From Gammaproteobacteria bacterium (GTDB lineage: Bacteria > Pseudomonadota > Gammaproteobacteria > JAABTG01), in NCBI GenBank assembly GCA_034522055.1, contig JAXHLS010000002.1, forward strand, positions 806,001-870,000: a stretch of 64,000 bases of DNA, written 5' to 3'. This document shows positions 45,604 to 55,582 of the stretch, piece after piece; the first letter of the stretch is position 1; every line of letters begins with the position of its first letter. The position numbers and the translations under genes are program-made. The notes below the pieces were generated by a model, which did no database searches, was not told where the DNA came from, and saw nothing but the letters and a program-made list of their open reading frames with translations.

Positions 45604-45681
45604 GGCATCTTCCTCCAGGAATCTCGTTGGCGGCCCGTGGACGCGGCCGAGGCCGGTCCACGGACGTATACGGATGCGGTC

Positions 45682-46014
45682 TTAGACGCAGCCGGTGGGC
45701 TTCGGCAGTCCGGCGTACTTACAGGCCTGCTTGCCGGGGCCGTAGGGGAAGAGCTCGTAGAGGTACTTGCTGTTGCCCTTGTCCTTGCCCAGTTTCTTGC
45801 CGACGGCCTTGGTCAGGACGCGCACGGCCGGGGCGATCTGGTATTCCTCGTAGTACTCGCGCAGGAAATTGATGATCTCCCAGTGATCGCTGCCGAGTTC
45901 CACGTCCTCGGCCTTGGCCATGGCCTCGGCCACGTCCGGCTCCCAATCGTTGAGGTCGGCCAGGTAGCCTTCTTCGTCGGTCTCAAACGTCTTACCGTTA
46001 ACTTCGAGTGTCAT
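45682..46014 (-). CDS. dsrC: DsrC, sulfur-carrying substrate protein of DsrAB
   Basis: A 110-residue protein whose flexible C-terminal arm carries sulfur to DsrAB and is released as a trisulfide. Both redox cysteines are present, Cys98 and Cys109 (GKQACKYAGLPKPTGCV), corresponding to Cys100 and Cys111 in Allochromatium. The preceding helical core matches TusE/DsrC. Compare with the cysteine-free paralogue at 53,104. Confidence 0.97.
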   Translation of the reverse strand: MTLEVNGKTFETDEEGYLADLNDWEPDVAEAMAKAEDVELGSDHWEIINFLREYYEEYQIAPAVRVLTKAVGKKLGKDKGNSKYLYELFPYGPGKQACKYAGLPKPTGCV

Positions 46015-47216: not shown

Positions 47217-48290
47217 TTAGAAGCGGATGTGGGTCGAAGCGTTCAGGCGCTCGCGGGCACCACGCCAGTTATCGATGTGGAACTTGGTGAACGGCAGACC
47301 GGTCATCTCGAAGAAACGCGGCCAGCCGATACGGTCGATCCAGTCATTGATACGCTCCCAATCCCGGGCGTCTTCCTTGTAGACCTTAAGAATATTCTTG
47401 ACGATGGCGGTCGCCTCGGGCCAGCGCGGCGGGTTGTTGGGGATGCCGGCGGCCACGAGCTTCTGGAAGCTCGGCTTGCTGCGCGCATTGGAGTGGTTGC
47501 CGCCTACCCAGATGGCGAGCTTGGTGTGCTCGGGGTCGTTGATCTGCATGGGCGGGCAGGGCGGGAAGCAGGCACCGCAGCAGATACACTTCTTCTCGTC
47601 CACCTCGAGGGAGGGCTTGCCGTTCACCAGCGCAGGCCGGATGGCCGCCACCGGACAACGGGCCACCACCGACGGCCGTTCGCAGACGTTGGCCACCAGG
47701 TCGTGGCGGATCTTCGGCGGCTTGGTGTGCTGGACGTTGATGGCGATATCGCCCTGGCCACCGCAGTTGATCTGGCAGCACGACGTGGTGAGATGCACGC
47801 GGTTGGGCATGTTGTGATTTTTGAACTCATCGATGAGTTCATCCATCATCGCCTTCACCACGCCCGAGGCGTCGGTACCGGGGATGTCGCAATGGAGCCA
47901 GCCCTGCGTGTGGGAGATCATGGCCACCGAGTTGCCGGTGCCGCCCACCACGAATCCGGCACCTTCCAGGGCATCGATGAGGGGCTGAACCTTGGCCTCG
48001 TCCGTCACCATGTACTCGATGTTGCTGCGCAGGGTGAAACGCACATAGCCGTCGCCGTAGGTCTCGCCGATCTCGCACAGTTTGCGCAAAGAATAGACAT
48101 CCAGAATGCGCTGGGTGCCGGCCTTGACGGTCCATACCTGGTCACCGCTGTGGGCGGCATGCATGAGGACACCGGGGCGGGTGTGCTCGTGGTATTTCCA
48201 CTGCCCGTAGTTCTTGCGCATCACGGGATGCATATACTGGAAGCCATCCGGGCATCCACTCTCGATGGGCGTACGATGCTGTTGAGCCAT
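47217..48290 (-). CDS. dsrB: Reverse-type dissimilatory sulfite reductase beta subunit
   Basis: Beta subunit (357 residues) of DsrAB, which oxidises DsrC-bound or sulfide-level sulfur to sulfite in the cytosol. It has the TSCCQINCGGQGD cysteine region near the siroheme pocket and a ferredoxin-like insertion with CICCGACFPPCPPMQI. The ending NASTHIRF and the context (dsrEFH, dsrL) identify the oxidative rDsr type. Lies 100 bases after dsrA. Confidence 0.96.
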   Translation of the reverse strand: MAQQHRTPIESGCPDGFQYMHPVMRKNYGQWKYHEHTRPGVLMHAAHSGDQVWTVKAGTQRILDVYSLRKLCEIGETYGDGYVRFTLRSNIEYMVTDEAKVQPLIDALEGAGFVVGGTGNSVAMISHTQGWLHCDIPGTDASGVVKAMMDELIDEFKNHNMPNRVHLTTSCCQINCGGQGDIAINVQHTKPPKIRHDLVANVCERPSVVARCPVAAIRPALVNGKPSLEVDEKKCICCGACFPPCPPMQINDPEHTKLAIWVGGNHSNARSKPSFQKLVAAGIPNNPPRWPEATAIVKNILKVYKEDARDWERINDWIDRIGWPRFFEMTGLPFTKFHIDNWRGARERLNASTHIRF

Positions 48291-48390
48291 TGCTTACCTC
48301 CGCTACTCGCTCAATAAACCTGTCTTGAAGGAAGGGGCGCAGAGATTGACACCCTGCGCCCCTTTCCGGGGTCCTTATTCAACAACCGGC

Positions 48391-49650
48391 TCAACCCGCG
48401 GCGGCAGCCTCGGCCTGGCGGTTGAACCACTTGGCAGCCTCGTCGTCCCAGTCGTCCATGCGCACATAGGACACCTGACGGGGGGAAGACACCATGTTGG
48501 GATCCACCTCGATGCCGATACCCTCGAGGAAATTCACCAGGCCGATACGCTCGATCATCTCACCGGTGCGCTCGTGCTCCAGGGCGTTCTCGGCGAAGAA
48601 GTCGATGCTCTCCTCGGCGATCTCGACGATGCGCTCATAGTCCTCGGCGGTGTCCATCTTCATGAAGGGCACCACGACGGTACCCATGAGGTCACCGATC
48701 TTCAGAGTGCGCTTACCGCCGATGAGGATGGTCACGCCCTTGTCGTCACCGGGGGACAGGGCCTTGTTCATGACGTTGAGGCAGTGCATGCAGCGCACAC
48801 AGTTGCGATTGTCCACGTCCAGGGTGTCGTCGTCATTGAGGGACATGCAGTTGGTGGGGCAACGCGACACCACGTTGTCGACGACGTACTTGCGACCCTT
48901 CTTCGCGACGAAGGCCTTGACCTCGTCCTGATCGATCTTCATGTCATCACGCCAAGTGCCGATAACGGCCATGTCCGCGCGCTCGATGGCGTTGACACAG
49001 TCGTTGGGGCAGCCCGACACCTTGAACTTGAACTTGTAGGGCAGGGCCGGGCGATGCACGTCATCGGTGAAGTTGTTCACCAGGTGGCGCATGATGGACT
49101 GCTCGTTGCAGTTGGACTGCTCGCAGCGCGCGGCGCCGACACAGCACATGGCGGTACGGACGCAGGGCCCGGCACCGCCGAGGTCCCAGCCGTAATCGTT
49201 GATCTCATCGAAGAAGTGCTGGGTGCCGGGGGTGTCGGTACCGATGAACATGATGTTCCCGGTCTGGCCGTGGAAGGTCACCATGCCCGAGCCGTACTTT
49301 TCCCAGCTGTCGGCGAGCTGGCGCAGCATCTCGGTGGTATACATGTTGCCAGCCGGCGGCTGCACGCGCAGGGTGTGGAACTCCTTGGAGGCAGGGAATT
49401 GCTTACCTACCTCGGAGAAGCGCGGAATGATGCCTCCACCATAGCCATAAACACTGACCGTGCCGCCCTTCCAGTAGCCCTTGCGGGTCTCGTAGGAGTG
49501 CTCCAGCTGACCCAGCAGGTCATTGGCCATCGCGTTGATGCGCTCTTCGGGATGCTGATCCCGCATGCGCTTGATTCCGGAGATGAAGCTGGGCCAGGGC
49601 CCATCCTCGAGCTGATCGATCATCGGGGTATCATGCTTCTCGATTGCCAT
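48391..49650 (-). CDS. dsrA: Reverse-type dissimilatory sulfite reductase alpha subunit
   Basis: Alpha subunit (419 residues) of DsrAB. It has the siroheme-[4Fe-4S] ligand regions CCVGAARCEQSNC and CPNDC and a ferredoxin-like domain with CVRCMHCLNVMNKAL. First gene of the dsrABEFHCMKLJOPNR operon. The ATG at 49,650 has GGAGGCA upstream (GAAGGAGGCACTT on the minus strand). The surrounding sulfur-oxidiser genes indicate operation in the oxidative direction. Confidence 0.97.
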   Translation of the reverse strand: MAIEKHDTPMIDQLEDGPWPSFISGIKRMRDQHPEERINAMANDLLGQLEHSYETRKGYWKGGTVSVYGYGGGIIPRFSEVGKQFPASKEFHTLRVQPPAGNMYTTEMLRQLADSWEKYGSGMVTFHGQTGNIMFIGTDTPGTQHFFDEINDYGWDLGGAGPCVRTAMCCVGAARCEQSNCNEQSIMRHLVNNFTDDVHRPALPYKFKFKVSGCPNDCVNAIERADMAVIGTWRDDMKIDQDEVKAFVAKKGRKYVVDNVVSRCPTNCMSLNDDDTLDVDNRNCVRCMHCLNVMNKALSPGDDKGVTILIGGKRTLKIGDLMGTVVVPFMKMDTAEDYERIVEIAEESIDFFAENALEHERTGEMIERIGLVNFLEGIGIEVDPNMVSSPRQVSYVRMDDWDDEAAKWFNRQAEAAAAG

Positions 49651-50094: not shown

Positions 50095-51012
50095 ATGGAC
50101 AATCCCTTCCTCACCCACCGTCTTACGGCCTATGAACACTGGCGCAGGCATAAGCTTGCCTGTGCCGACGCCGGACCGGCGGACACCGTGGAGGTGGCCG
50201 ACCCATGGTCGCCCACGGCCGGCGAGCTGACGGCGCTGCGCTATGCCCTCACCGTCCACAACATGGTGCACTACCGCTGGCCGGCCGTTCCACCGGAGGA
50301 TGAGAAAGAGGCCCTGCGCGCCTTCTGCCGCCGGCTCGGGCTGGTGGATCTGGACCGCAACCTCTACGCCGACGACGACGGCATCGCCGCCCTCAAGGTG
50401 GTAGCCGGCGGGCGCCGCGGCGAATACATCCCCTATACCAGTCGCGCCATCAACTGGCATACGGACGGCTATTACAATGCGCCTCACCAGCTGGTCAGGG
50501 CCTTCGCGCTCCATTGCTCCCGCGACGCCGCAATAGGCGGCGGCAGTCGGCTGCTGGATCACGAGCTGGCATATATAGCCATACGGGACCACCATCCCGA
50601 GTATGTCGAGGCCCTGATGGCGGACGACGCCATGACCATCCCCGAGAACGTCGAGGACGGTGAGGTGATACGCCCGCGCCAGGCCGGCCCGGTATTCAGC
50701 GTGGATCCCGGCCTCGGCAGCCTCCACCTGCGCTACACGGCCCGCACGCGTTCCATCCAATGGAAGGACGACACCCTCACACAGGAGGCGGTGGCCTGCC
50801 TGGTGGAGGTCTTGCAAGGGCTCTCCCACCGGGTCGTCGCACTACGCCTGCAATCCCAGGAAGGGGTCCTCACCAGCAATGTGCTCCACGGCCGGGACGC
50901 CTTCACGGACGACCCCGCTACGGGCCGGATACGGCTGTTCTATCGCGCGCGCTTCCACGAACGCGCGGCCGGCACCGGGGTCGCGGACTTCGCGGCCCTG
51001 TGCGGCGGCTGA
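50095..51012 (+). CDS. TauD/TfdA-family 2-oxoglutarate/Fe(II) dioxygenase
   Basis: A 305-residue oxygenase of the TauD/TfdA superfamily. The iron triad appears as His122 and Asp124 (NWHTDGYYN) plus His265 (SNVLHGRDAF), with a later arginine region (GRIRLFYRARFHER) for 2-oxoglutarate. I chose ATG 50,095, preceded by TGGAGA. Members act on taurine, carnitine precursors and other substrates; the substrate here is unknown. It is divergent from dsrA and leads a small plus-strand gene set. Confidence 0.82.
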   Translation: MDNPFLTHRLTAYEHWRRHKLACADAGPADTVEVADPWSPTAGELTALRYALTVHNMVHYRWPAVPPEDEKEALRAFCRRLGLVDLDRNLYADDDGIAALKVVAGGRRGEYIPYTSRAINWHTDGYYNAPHQLVRAFALHCSRDAAIGGGSRLLDHELAYIAIRDHHPEYVEALMADDAMTIPENVEDGEVIRPRQAGPVFSVDPGLGSLHLRYTARTRSIQWKDDTLTQEAVACLVEVLQGLSHRVVALRLQSQEGVLTSNVLHGRDAFTDDPATGRIRLFYRARFHERAAGTGVADFAALCGG

Positions 51013-51205: not shown

Positions 51206-51391
51206 ATGCTCTATCTCAGCGAGTTGATGCTCCGGAACAACGACATCACCAGTTTCGAGGAACTCATGCTCCTGGTGAAGGAGGCGGCACGCTCGCATCG
51301 TTTTTTCAAGATGGACGTCAAGCCACCCTACGCCGATACGCCGGAGAACTGGGAGGATGTCCTGGAAGGGGCATTCAGCGGCGTGGTCTGA
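51206..51391 (+). CDS. Small conserved-looking protein, 61 residues
   Basis: Starts at ATG 51,206 (MLYLSELMLRNNDITSFEEL) with AGGA seven bases upstream. It is mostly helical and acidic, ending PYADTPENWEDVLEGAFSGV. No cysteine and no signal. I do not recognise it with certainty; its tight placement before the 51,436 gene and the cysteine-free DsrC suggests a role tied to sulfur metabolism. Confidence 0.6.
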   Translation: MLYLSELMLRNNDITSFEELMLLVKEAARSHRFFKMDVKPPYADTPENWEDVLEGAFSGVV

Positions 51392-51435: not shown

Positions 51436-52140
51436 ATGAAATTTTACAGCGGCAACGAGCACGACATTCACGCGGCGGCCCAGGACGCCGCCAGCGAGCG
51501 CGCCCAGTTGGAGACCCAGCTGCAGGCCCTGCGCCGACAGCTGCCCCAGGCGCCCGAGGGCAGCACCCGGCGCGCCCACATCCAGCTCGAGGAGGCCCAC
51601 CTGTTGCTGCGCATGGCCCGCCAGCCGGAGGCCTGGCCCCCCGCGCGCGAGGCCTTCGACCGCTTCATCGCCGAACGGGACTGGGAGAACGCAGCGGGCG
51701 CCGCCGAAGCCCTGTTCCTGGCCGAGCAGGACGATTCCCTGGCGGCCCTCGGTCAGGGGATCTGGCTCGCCGTCACCTTCCCCATCAATCCCGAGGTCAC
51801 CGTGGAACTGCTGCGGCGCGTGGTGGAAGAGACGCCCGAGGACTCGGATGGCGCCGCCGTGGCCGCGGCCGCCGCCCACTACGTGGCCGATCTGCGGGCG
51901 CCCGATGATGCCAAGGCCCGCGAGGACCTTTTGTTCTACACCGCCCAACTGCTGTCGTCGGTGGCGCGCCGTCACAGTGATGTCAAGGATCAGGCCCAGT
52001 TCGATGCCTGGATGTCCCGTCTGGAACTGGACCAGCCCGACAAGTTCCTGGTGCGGCTGCGCAACGTGGTGGACGTGCTGGTGCAGGACGAGTGGTGGTT
52101 CGACCGCGAGGCCCTGCAGGCCGCGATTCCGGAGAGCTGA
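51436..52140 (+). CDS. Helical protein of unknown function, 234 residues
   Basis: Not recognised. It begins MKFYSGNEHDIHAAAQDAAS, followed by a likely coiled coil (about residues 20-45), then an all-helical, acidic sequence rich in alanine and leucine that could form TPR- or HEAT-like helical pairs. No cysteines. It ends one base before the Cas6-like gene, so the two are almost certainly cotranscribed and may work together. Confidence 0.72.
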   Translation: MKFYSGNEHDIHAAAQDAASERAQLETQLQALRRQLPQAPEGSTRRAHIQLEEAHLLLRMARQPEAWPPAREAFDRFIAERDWENAAGAAEALFLAEQDDSLAALGQGIWLAVTFPINPEVTVELLRRVVEETPEDSDGAAVAAAAAHYVADLRAPDDAKAREDLLFYTAQLLSSVARRHSDVKDQAQFDAWMSRLELDQPDKFLVRLRNVVDVLVQDEWWFDREALQAAIPES

Positions 52141-52141
52141 C

Positions 52142-52849
52142 ATGTTCTGGGAGGACAACGAAGGCCAGCGGAACAAAGCCGAGACCGACGATGTAGTCGA
52201 CCTGGTGTTCCGTATCCGCTGCCCCACCATCCCGGCGGACCATGCCCACGCGCTCGGCGCCGCCCTCACCGGATTGTTGCCCTGGCTGCGGGACGATGCC
52301 CGGGCCGGCGTCCATACCATCCATGGCGCCCCCACGGGCAACGGCTGGATTCGTCCCGACGATGAGGCGGCCGACGCGGTTCTTCATCTCTCCAAGCGTG
52401 CCCGCCTGCAGCTGCGGGTACCGGCCACGCGGCTGGACGCCGCGCGGACCCTCGAGGGCCAGACCCTGGACATCGACGGGCATGCCATCGAAGTGGGTAC
52501 CCCCTCCATCAAGGAACTCGATCCTCTGCCCACCCTGTTCGCCCGTTACGTGGTGGGGAGCGAGGAGATGGAGCACGGCGACGAGATGGCGTTCCTGTCC
52601 TGGGTGAAGTCACGGCTGGCCGAGTCGGACATCCGTGTCCGCAAGCTCATGTGCGGGCGCAGCCACACCCTCAAGACCCCGGATGGCGGCCTGTTCGTGC
52701 GCAGCGTCATGGTGGCGGACCTGGACAAGGACGCGTCCCTCAAACTCCAGCGCCACGGCATCGGCCCATTGCGCCACATGGGGTGCGGACTGTTCATTCC
52801 CCACAAGGGCATCGTCTCCATGTCCCAAGGCTCCGACAAGGAATCATGA
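52142..52849 (+). CDS. Cas6/Cmx6-family RNA endonuclease-like protein
   Basis: A 235-residue protein that fits the Cas6/Cmx6 (type I-MYXAN) family pattern: an N-terminal VVDLVFRIRCPTIPADHAHA segment, LPWLRDDARAGVHTIHGAP with histidines 58 and 61 as candidate catalytic residues, LSKRARLQLRVPATRLDAA, and a C-terminal glycine-rich loop GIGPLRHMGCGLFIPHKGI (residues 206-224), a Cas6 hallmark. Cas6 enzymes cut CRISPR repeat RNA, but no array, other cas gene, or effector is present. The gene lies in a tight set with a helical protein and a cysteine-free DsrC. Family assignment is from memory of motifs. Confidence 0.7.
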   Translation: MFWEDNEGQRNKAETDDVVDLVFRIRCPTIPADHAHALGAALTGLLPWLRDDARAGVHTIHGAPTGNGWIRPDDEAADAVLHLSKRARLQLRVPATRLDAARTLEGQTLDIDGHAIEVGTPSIKELDPLPTLFARYVVGSEEMEHGDEMAFLSWVKSRLAESDIRVRKLMCGRSHTLKTPDGGLFVRSVMVADLDKDASLKLQRHGIGPLRHMGCGLFIPHKGIVSMSQGSDKES

Positions 52850-52984: not shown

Positions 52985-53103
52985 AATGGTATAGAATTCT
53001 CCGCCGTCGATTCGATTGACCTGGCTTACCCCGCGGGGTGCCTGATCCTGGGGCGCTGCCGTACCAATAAACCAACCTTGTTTCATGTTTAAGGAGCCTA
53101 TCC

Positions 53104-53445
53104 ATGAGCTATGCGTTTGATGGTAAGACCATCGCCACCAACGACCACGGCTATCTCGAGGACCATAACGACTGGAGCGAGGCCCTCGCCCAGCATATCG
53201 CCAGTGAGGAAGCGGTGGGGGAACTCACGGAACGCCACTGGGACATTATCCACTACCTGCGCGACGAGTACTTCAACAACAACGGCAGCCAGCCCAACGA
53301 GCGCTCCATCATCAAGGCCATGTCGGACAAGTGGGGACGCAAGACCAGCAGCAAGGAGATGTACGAACTCTTCCCCCTCATGCCCAGCAAGCAGGGCGGC
53401 AAGGTCGCCGGCCTCCCCGAGAGCCGCCGCAAGGGCGGCTATTAA
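53104..53445 (+). CDS. Cysteine-free DsrC/TusE paralogue (RspA-type)
   Basis: A 113-residue DsrC-fold protein aligning along its length with the DsrC at 45,682 (DGKTIATNDHGYLEDHNDW, RHWDIIHYLRDEYF, KEMYELFPLMPSKQGGKVAG). Both redox cysteines are gone: the QACK position is QGGK, and the end is RRKGGY instead of TGCV. It cannot carry sulfur and matches the published RspA type, suggested to be regulatory. AAGGAG lies seven bases before ATG 53,104. Confidence 0.88.
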   Translation: MSYAFDGKTIATNDHGYLEDHNDWSEALAQHIASEEAVGELTERHWDIIHYLRDEYFNNNGSQPNERSIIKAMSDKWGRKTSSKEMYELFPLMPSKQGGKVAGLPESRRKGGY

Positions 53446-53878: not shown

Positions 53879-54553
53879 TCAAACCTCCGACCACATGCGC
53901 ACGAGGTTGACGTAGGCCACGTCCACCCGTTTGGTTTCCTCGGCATCGGGGGCATCCCGGAGCATCTGCTCTCGGGCCAGGTTGAGACCGTCCAGCAGTT
54001 CCCGTTGCTCGGGGCTTCTGATCATGCTCTGGATCCAGGTCACCGCCACCCGGCGCTCGCCGGCGGTCACGGGCGCCACGTGGTGGAGGCTGGACGAGGG
54101 GTAGGCCACGGCGGCGCCGGCCGCCAGCTTGACGCCGCGCGGGCCGAAGGCGGTGTTGATCACCAGCTCGCCGCCCTCGTAGGTCTCGGGAGCGGACAGG
54201 AATACCGTGGCGGAGACATCGGATCGGTACTGGCTGCCCGGTGCCCCCATGACGGGATCATCCACGTGATCCCCGTAGGTCATGTCGGACCCGTAGCGGG
54301 CATAGAAAGGGGTGGCCACCCGCAGGGGCAGCACCGCACTCTTGAAGCGGGGATGGCGCACCAGCGCCCCCATCACCAGGCGGTTCAACTCCGCGAGTTC
54401 GGGGGCGCCGCCATCCACCTCCTGGTTGTGCTTGACGCGCCGCGCCGCGAGGCCGGCCGACAACCGGCCGTCCACGAAGCGCGCCCCTTCCAGCAGTTCC
54501 TGCACCCGCGCCAGGGTGCGGGCATCGAGAATGCCGAGGATCTCCAGCAGCAT
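53879..54553 (-). CDS. PKHD-type 2-oxoglutarate/Fe(II) hydroxylase (PiuC/YbiX-like)
   Basis: A 224-residue oxygenase with the iron site His96-x-Asp98 (TYGDHVDDPVMG), distal His157/158 (SSSLHHVAPVTAGERRVA) and Arg168 for 2-oxoglutarate. It matches the PKHD-hydroxylase (PiuC) family, often linked to iron uptake genes. Here it is the last of three overlapping genes with a receiver-like protein and another oxygenase, so a modification pathway is possible. The substrate is unknown. Confidence 0.88.
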   Translation of the reverse strand: MLLEILGILDARTLARVQELLEGARFVDGRLSAGLAARRVKHNQEVDGGAPELAELNRLVMGALVRHPRFKSAVLPLRVATPFYARYGSDMTYGDHVDDPVMGAPGSQYRSDVSATVFLSAPETYEGGELVINTAFGPRGVKLAAGAAVAYPSSSLHHVAPVTAGERRVAVTWIQSMIRSPEQRELLDGLNLAREQMLRDAPDAEETKRVDVAYVNLVRMWSEV

Positions 54554-54930
54554 CAGTCCGCCGCCAGGCCTTCCAGGGCCGCGGCCACCGCCGCGGGAAC
54601 GATGGGGAACGCCAGGGTGCGATCCACGGGGAAGCGGCCCAGCACCTTGTCCAGATGGCCGGCCTGCTCCGTCTCGTAAAACACCACCACCCTGGCGGCC
54701 GGACAGCGAGTCTGGCGGGTGGCCAGCAGGGATTCCAGGCTGCTGGTACGGTCGCGGAAATCCGACTGGTAGTTGAACTCGGCGACGATGACCGCGGGTT
54801 GGCGTTTTTTCATCAAGGCGATGGCCTTGCGCATGGAATTGGCGGTGACCACCTCGTAGCCGGCCTGCCGATAGACATCCATGAGGTTGGGGTAACCGCC
54901 GAGTTCCATGATGGCAAGCAGCAACGGCAT
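54553..54930 (-). CDS. Receiver-like protein of 125 residues, degenerate
   Basis: Its fold pattern (GYEVVTANSMRKAIALMKKR, PAVIVAEFNYQS, ARVVVFYETEQAGHLDKVLG) resembles a response-regulator receiver, but the phosphoacceptor position reads VAEFNYQ, with no obvious aspartate, and the N-terminal acidic pair is missing. The start shares one base with the 53,879 stop arrangement, and it is one base from the oxygenase before it. Cotranscription is clear; function is unknown. Confidence 0.62.
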   Translation of the reverse strand: MPLLLAIMELGGYPNLMDVYRQAGYEVVTANSMRKAIALMKKRQPAVIVAEFNYQSDFRDRTSSLESLLATRQTRCPAARVVVFYETEQAGHLDKVLGRFPVDRTLAFPIVPAAVAAALEGLAAD

Positions 54931-54931
54931 G

Positions 54932-55528
54932 TCAGGCGAACACCACCCAGGTGGTGGCGATGTACTTGACGCCCTGCTCCAGGGTCACGCTGCGGTGTTC
55001 ATGGGTCCAGAAGGGGGGGAAGATCACCAGCTTGCCCTCCTCCGGGCGCACGCGCACGCCCTGGAAACGGAACTCGGTCTCGCCCCCCGGACCCGGCACG
55101 TCGTTGAGATACCACAGGGCCACCAGCTGGCGATAGCTGAAGTCATGGCTGCCGCCGTCGATGTGCCAGTGGTAGTACTCGCCGGCATGGTAGCGCTGGA
55201 TGCCGTAGCCCATATCCTTGAAGGAACCACCAAAGAACGGATAGACCTCCCGCACGATCTTCATGGTCGCCGCCAGGGAATGGAACAAGGCCTGGTCCAC
55301 GTCTTTCCAATCCGGCTTGTCGCTGACCGTCAGGTCCGTGGTCTTCTTGACACGTCCGTCCTCGGTCCCCACCTGGCCGATACGCCCCGCACGCTGGTGG
55401 TGGGGACTGTCCTCGAAACGGCGGATCACGTCACGGCAGAAGGCCCCGTCCAGGGCACCGTGGATCTCGTGGATGAAGGTGTCGGGCTTGACCTCCTCGA
55501 GGCGGGGGAAGGGGCTTGGGGATGTCAT
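54932..55528 (-). CDS. Prolyl 4-hydroxylase-like 2-oxoglutarate/Fe(II) oxygenase
   Basis: A 198-residue protein with the oxygenase core: His122-x-Asp124 (YHWHIDGGSHD), a distal His176/178 (FWTHEHRS) and Lys188 (GVKYIATTW), as in P4H-type enzymes. ATG 55,528 (MTSPSPFPRL) is my choice; the longer frame has no ribosome site. It is the first of three genes with a receiver-like protein and a PKHD hydroxylase. The substrate is not known. Confidence 0.85.
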   Translation of the reverse strand: MTSPSPFPRLEEVKPDTFIHEIHGALDGAFCRDVIRRFEDSPHHQRAGRIGQVGTEDGRVKKTTDLTVSDKPDWKDVDQALFHSLAATMKIVREVYPFFGGSFKDMGYGIQRYHAGEYYHWHIDGGSHDFSYRQLVALWYLNDVPGPGGETEFRFQGVRVRPEEGKLVIFPPFWTHEHRSVTLEQGVKYIATTWVVFA

Positions 55529-55582
55529 GGTTGGAAAACGTTCCGGGGCATGGATCGGGGGCACCGCCCACGATACGCAGGC

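Follow-up and report, generated by a model that had tools for sequence, protein, structure and literature searches.

The stretch of DNA analysed here (the window) comprises 64,000 nucleotides of a gammaproteobacterial genome and contains a dsr locus, in which a block of plus-strand genes ending in rspA runs divergently from dsrA. The relevant features are:

45682 to 46014, minus strand: DsrC with Cys98 and Cys109 (PF04358, 5.1e-47; alignment)
47217 to 49650, minus strand: dsrB and dsrA, which open the dsr operon and point away from the block ending in rspA (open reading frames; DsrB served as search query)
50095 to 51012, plus strand: TauD-like dioxygenase gene, the first gene divergent from dsrA (PF02668, 2.2e-18; position conserved)
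51206 to 51391, plus strand: p61, a conserved 61-aa protein associated with dsrA in both Gamma- and Alphaproteobacteria (49 loci)
51436 to 52140, plus strand: 234-aa protein with no family above its cut-off (28 loci)
52142 to 52849, plus strand: stand-alone Cas6-like protein, 235 aa, upstream neighbour of rspA (PF09559, 6.6e-65; TIGR02807 over its cut-off)
53091 to 53096, plus strand: AAGGAG, ribosome-binding site of rspA (sequence)
53104 to 53445, plus strand: rspA, encoding a cysteine-free DsrC-family protein of 113 aa (PF04358, 5.1e-32; AlphaFold model)
53428 to 53442, plus strand: codons for the last five residues, RKGGY (joint alignment of 148 RspA and 61 DsrC sequences; 60 re-fetched orthologues)

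The rspA reading frame runs for 113 codons from an ATG, and in profile searches its product matches both PF04358 (5.1e-32, 110.9 bits, cut-off 24.9) and TIGR03342 (1e-27, 96.6 bits, cut-off 53.5). With scores above these cut-offs and a predicted DsrC fold, RspA is a member of the DsrC/TusE/DsvC protein family. The original prediction had described a DsrC paralogue without redox cysteines, and this is borne out, as the protein contains no cysteine at all, QGGK takes the place of QACK and the tail reads ESRRKGGY where DsrC has KPTGCV; the DsrC of the window retains both of its cysteines in the alignment, as had been claimed. In the joint alignment, whose 148 RspA sequences were selected by their KGGY ending so that the perfect tail there is by construction, Gly99 occupies the position of the first cysteine and Gly112 that of the penultimate one. 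The GGY of RspA falls in register with the GCV of DsrC, and Arg109-Lys110 form a two-residue insertion. K96-Q97 and G103-L104-P105 are common to both proteins, and many positions invariant in DsrC are altered in RspA, the loop EYQIAPAVR included. With glycine at both redox positions, the claim that RspA would be unable to carry sulfur as DsrC does is supported. The description of the C-terminal arm as "basic instead" was overstated, since the DsrC arm (from KQ on) already carries a charge of +3 and the RspA arm one of +4; the novelty of RspA lies in the R-K insertion close to the arm's tip. The core of RspA averages about –8.

The AlphaFold model of RspA (pLDDT 93.2, falling to about 51 over the last three residues) has A. 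vinosum DsrC (1yx3) as its best PDB match, and structure alignments give TM scores of 0.84 and 0.78 and identities of 39% and 28% to 1yx3 and to the D. vulgaris protein (2v4j chain C), respectively. RspA thus shares with DsrC the fold, the conserved KQ...GLP arm and the dsr locus, but differs in the absence of redox cysteines, the R-K insertion, KGGY in place of TGCV and the many changed DsrC-invariant residues. Judged by its alignment, RspA is not a DsrC sensu stricto, which requires the two arm cysteines. Nor is it a TusE, with which it shares the Pfam and NCBIfam subfamily, as Gly112 stands where TusE keeps its penultimate cysteine and its NF008562 score of 89.7 bits falls short of the cut-off of 191; in addition, RspA is found almost exclusively in dsr genomes. 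DsrC-like proteins lacking either cysteine are said to have been grouped as RspA by Venceslau and colleagues in 2014, with a regulatory role proposed. The window protein fits this definition, and the KGGY-tailed clade may be the same class.

The window genome holds nine more DsrC-family members beyond DsrC and RspA among its search matches (contigs C2 and C3; L002, L003 and L005–L011). Four of them have no cysteine at the redox positions (the near-identical duplicates L007 and L008, as well as L009 and L010) and three have the first cysteine only (L002, L003 and L005).

RspA proved to be more than a paralogue minus its cysteines, as it forms a separate conserved subfamily with its own invariant tail. 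A plain protein search of 56 related genomes returned 16 full-length orthologues, the window copy included, all of which end in RKGGY (16/16), the other 15 being 53–94% identical to the window protein. A pattern-based scan of genome contigs yielded 80 named loci; because the tail was one of its two patterns this set is biased, and profile-search loci were therefore re-fetched. These 60 loci (58 from the 232 gammaproteobacterial genomes described below and 2 from alphaproteobacteria) end in RKGGY in 58 cases and TKGGY in 2, so that KGGY is present in 60/60, in a set that is less biased though not bias-free because the search profile itself includes the tail. A tree computed for 80 family members without their arm groups all 35 RspA sequences (35/35) in one clade with a support of 100/97; the inner forks are weak because few columns remain. 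Between the window genome and a genus mate rspA shows a dN of 0.026 and a dS of 0.289 (dN/dS ∼0.09), and the gene is retained in three genomes of 1.0–1.1 Mb (G043, G133 and G232). On the strength of these comparisons RspA is under purifying selection and no decayed copy. Five divergent orthologues (L165–L169, the rspA genes of G227, G173, G081, G145 and G128) form an RspA sub-clade with a single arm cysteine, which replaces Leu104 (GGCP) and coincides with neither DsrC redox position.

Across the 80 named loci the common gene order is dsrA on the minus strand, followed on the plus strand by the tauD-like gene, p61, in some cases the 234-aa gene, the cas6-like gene and rspA. The cas6-like gene precedes rspA in 53/80 of these loci. 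The 234-aa gene is present in 28 loci as against the 53 with a Cas6-like gene, or around half of the homologous loci in Gammaproteobacteria, and p61 in 49. In alphaproteobacteria p61 occurs in 21/24 genomes, where it and the tauD-like gene are divergent from dsrA, with a 68-aa protein and an apparent siroheme synthase (read from sequence) coming next; rspA itself lies away from dsr in varied places. The invariant residues of p61 are S5, D37, P40, P46, W49, E54 and F57, and a structure search with it gave no significant match. Downstream of rspA in the window (53879 to 55564, minus strand) lie two 2OG-Fe(II) oxygenase genes, which are found near rspA in 34/80 and 24/80 loci.

The distribution samples were drawn from Gamma- and Alphaproteobacteria, with Chlorobia and sulfate reducers outside them. 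Among 232 genomes of the GTDB class Gammaproteobacteria that are at least 90% complete, 81 encode DsrB, 80 a member of the Cas6 family PF09559 and 73 RspA. DsrB is also present in 72 of the 73 genomes with RspA (Fisher p about 1e-48), and DsrB and PF09559 occur together in 78, that is 78/81 of those with DsrB (Fisher p about 1e-55); as the genomes are related, these p-values are descriptive only. The lone exception for RspA, G119, has its TauD-p61-cas6-rspA block at the edge of a contig, the next gene expected there being dsrA. RspA is absent from 9/81 dsr genomes and is thus not essential everywhere. A full RspA match was found in 3/289 sampled alphaproteobacteria, and the 24 alphaproteobacterial RspA genomes, the only ones covered by the alphaproteobacterial DsrB count, contain DsrB in 20/24 cases and PF09559 in 0/24; in one of the four without DsrB (the genome of L088) rspA lies close to dsrK and dsrL. 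The gammaproteobacterial genome G193 likewise has RspA and no Cas6-like gene. These counts (72/73 and 20/24 with DsrB, 0/24 with PF09559 in alphaproteobacteria) indicate that RspA follows the dsr pathway and not the Cas6-like gene. Relatives with the KGGY tail are all but confined to bacteria that oxidise sulfur through the reverse Dsr pathway, plus a few phages, which marks RspA as a dedicated part of that pathway.

KGGY-tailed RspA is encoded on three IMG/VR contigs. IMGVR_UViG_3300033182_000674, a contig of 219,676 bases, carries tusA (PF01206), dsrC and rspA in this order (L256, 9341 to 10342); the surrounding genes match phage families, dsrC keeps both cysteines, and rspA begins 10 bases past the dsrC stop with a ribosome site of its own. 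IMGVR_UViG_3300032087_002997 carries rspA and baseplate genes, dsrC being absent from the stretch read, and the phage nature of the third contig (L254) is less clear. The three-gene cassette is present in one phage contig only, as L261–L264 contain tusA-dsrC with no rspA nearby. DsrC-family genes in phages of sulfur oxidisers have been described before: the accessible text of PMC4164917 reports a phage DsrC-like group without the second cysteine, and that of PMC8190135 five phage DsrC-like proteins with neither cysteine. The cysteine-free proteins are given no identity in these portions of the two papers, whereas the KGGY tail ties at least some phage genes to cellular RspA. An open-literature search found no relevant paper for RspA together with DsrC, and within the literature searched the KGGY signature, the strict dsr linkage, the Cas6-like companion and the phage cassette appear to be undescribed.

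The association with DsrAB (nearly always) and with TusA and DsrC (in phage), together with the register of the tail, point to the sulfur relay as the putative site of RspA action. We therefore propose, with a probability of roughly 45%, that RspA is a redox-dead protein of the DsrC fold dedicated to the reverse Dsr pathway, where it would act as a protein-binding regulator of the TusA-DsrEFH-DsrC-DsrAB/DsrL relay. In such a model the DsrC-like core and the arm would dock on one component of the relay, with KGGY placed where DsrC has Gly-Cys-Val. Lacking any cysteine on which sulfur could be taken up or passed on, RspA would tune sulfur traffic rather than carry it, whether as a competitor, a gate or an allosteric effector. 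Since a thiol-less RspA cannot carry sulfur, we infer a binding or gating role, with a relay protein as the putative partner. RspA may not bind the partners of DsrC by the same face, because many DsrC-invariant residues are changed; the partner or the face may differ. DsrD, which is reported to activate DsrAB allosterically in sulfate reducers (PMC11406059), offers a possible precedent for such a way of working as a small protein of a Dsr system, but there the pathway runs in the other direction and DsrD would serve as an analogy, not as a relative of RspA.

The original prediction had correctly placed an RNA-endonuclease-like gene beside rspA, as a Cas6 family gene adjoins it, and had raised the idea that RspA binds nucleic acid. 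In one form of this idea, the Cas6-like endoribonuclease would cut or bind hairpins in dsr mRNA, and RspA would serve it as a regulatory subunit that recruits or senses via KGGY. The gene pair is indeed close, with cas6 directly upstream of rspA on the same strand in 62/71 genomes that have both and a median gap of about 136 bases between matches. The nearest solved relative of the Cas6-like protein is the type I-B Cas6 8fcj (9.6e-12), and nearly all of 54 Cas6-like sequences retain H34, H58, K168 and the glycine-rich loop. By cas1 co-occurrence and gene neighbours, the Cas6-like gene does not behave as part of a CRISPR-Cas module, as its neighbours are dsr genes and Cas1 is found in 40/80 Cas6-like genomes (40 with, 40 without) versus 56/152 others (p 0.07). 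Because this tie is not significant while the dsr link is near-universal (78/81), the gene looks like a CRISPR-independent dsr companion. A search of the open literature found no link of Cmx6 to sulfur, and its accessible parts none of Cas6 to DsrC.

A GC-rich hairpin lies between dsrC and dsrM at 45604 to 45681 and in the homologous gaps of most loci, with or without a Cas6-like gene, and might act in mRNA stability. Such hairpins would supply a substrate for the proposed endoribonuclease, but they are found also where the Cas6-like gene is absent (G115 and many alphaproteobacteria): the median z is –2.6 in 32 loci with cas6 and –2.3 in 19 loci without, and the highest stem score belongs to G115. 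The two genes also part company, RspA occurring without a Cas6-like gene in alphaproteobacteria and G193, the Cas6-like gene without RspA in 9 of its 80 gammaproteobacterial genomes, and the phage rspA following tusA-dsrC; together with the acidic core, this leaves the regulatory-subunit reading unlikely and the nucleic-acid role drawn from the neighbouring gene unsupported. A joint control module adopted by reverse-Dsr sulfur oxidisers, in which the stand-alone Cas6 and the cysteine-free DsrC would process or sense dsr transcripts and so couple the state of the relay to mRNA fate, is likewise improbable.

The DsrC of A. vinosum reportedly binds DNA upstream of dsr. RspA could be a transcription factor that binds the divergent dsrA promoter through a helix-turn-helix-like core. 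The block ending in rspA is divergent from dsrA, and a putative role of DsrC in transcription regulation is mentioned in PMC7787665, citing Venceslau 2014. However, the core charge of about –8 opposes DNA binding, all structure matches with E < 0.001 are DsrC-family folds, DNA-binding folds appearing first at E ∼0.6 or more, and in alphaproteobacteria rspA is not beside dsr, so that we consider this reading improbable and binding of nucleic acid by the core, as originally suggested, is not favoured. Overall, the acidic core, an arm of +4 versus +3 and the occurrence of RspA without a Cas6-like gene count against the nucleic-acid reading, and we favour a protein-binding regulator because the core is acidic and the arm barely more basic than that of DsrC.

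RspA might instead, as a relative of TusE, serve tRNA thiolation with TtcA or MnmA, and a ttcA-like gene (read from an SGGKDS protein) does lie just downstream of rspA in several Rhodobacteraceae. This adjacency is unseen in other groups, other genes intervene in L074 and L102, and the distribution of RspA follows that of DsrAB, a protein dispensable for tRNA thiolation, making such a role very improbable; we rejected the neighbour as a general link and regard it as a local arrangement of the Rhodobacteraceae. Finally, a functionless decayed paralogue or a frameshift or sequencing error hiding cysteines, for which the two missing redox cysteines might be taken to speak, is rejected with near certainty given KGGY in all full-length orthologues checked, the dN/dS of 0.09 and retention in the 1.0–1.1 Mb genomes.

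A protein-binding regulator of the relay thus remains our preferred, if tentative, reading of RspA, an accessory protein conserved in the sulfur oxidation of Gammaproteobacteria and present in 72/81 dsr genomes sampled. Its annotation as a DsrC/TusE sulfur carrier assigns it a role that it cannot fill, and counting such proteins as DsrC inflates the number of sulfur-carrier genes, phages included. The invariant KGGY tail provides a clean handle for mutation and pull-down, and the Cas6-like companion (78/81 dsr genomes), a CRISPR-type protein beside sulfur oxidation, merits separate study. If RspA does gate the relay, models of sulfur-flux control would change for sulfur-oxidising symbionts and purple sulfur bacteria.
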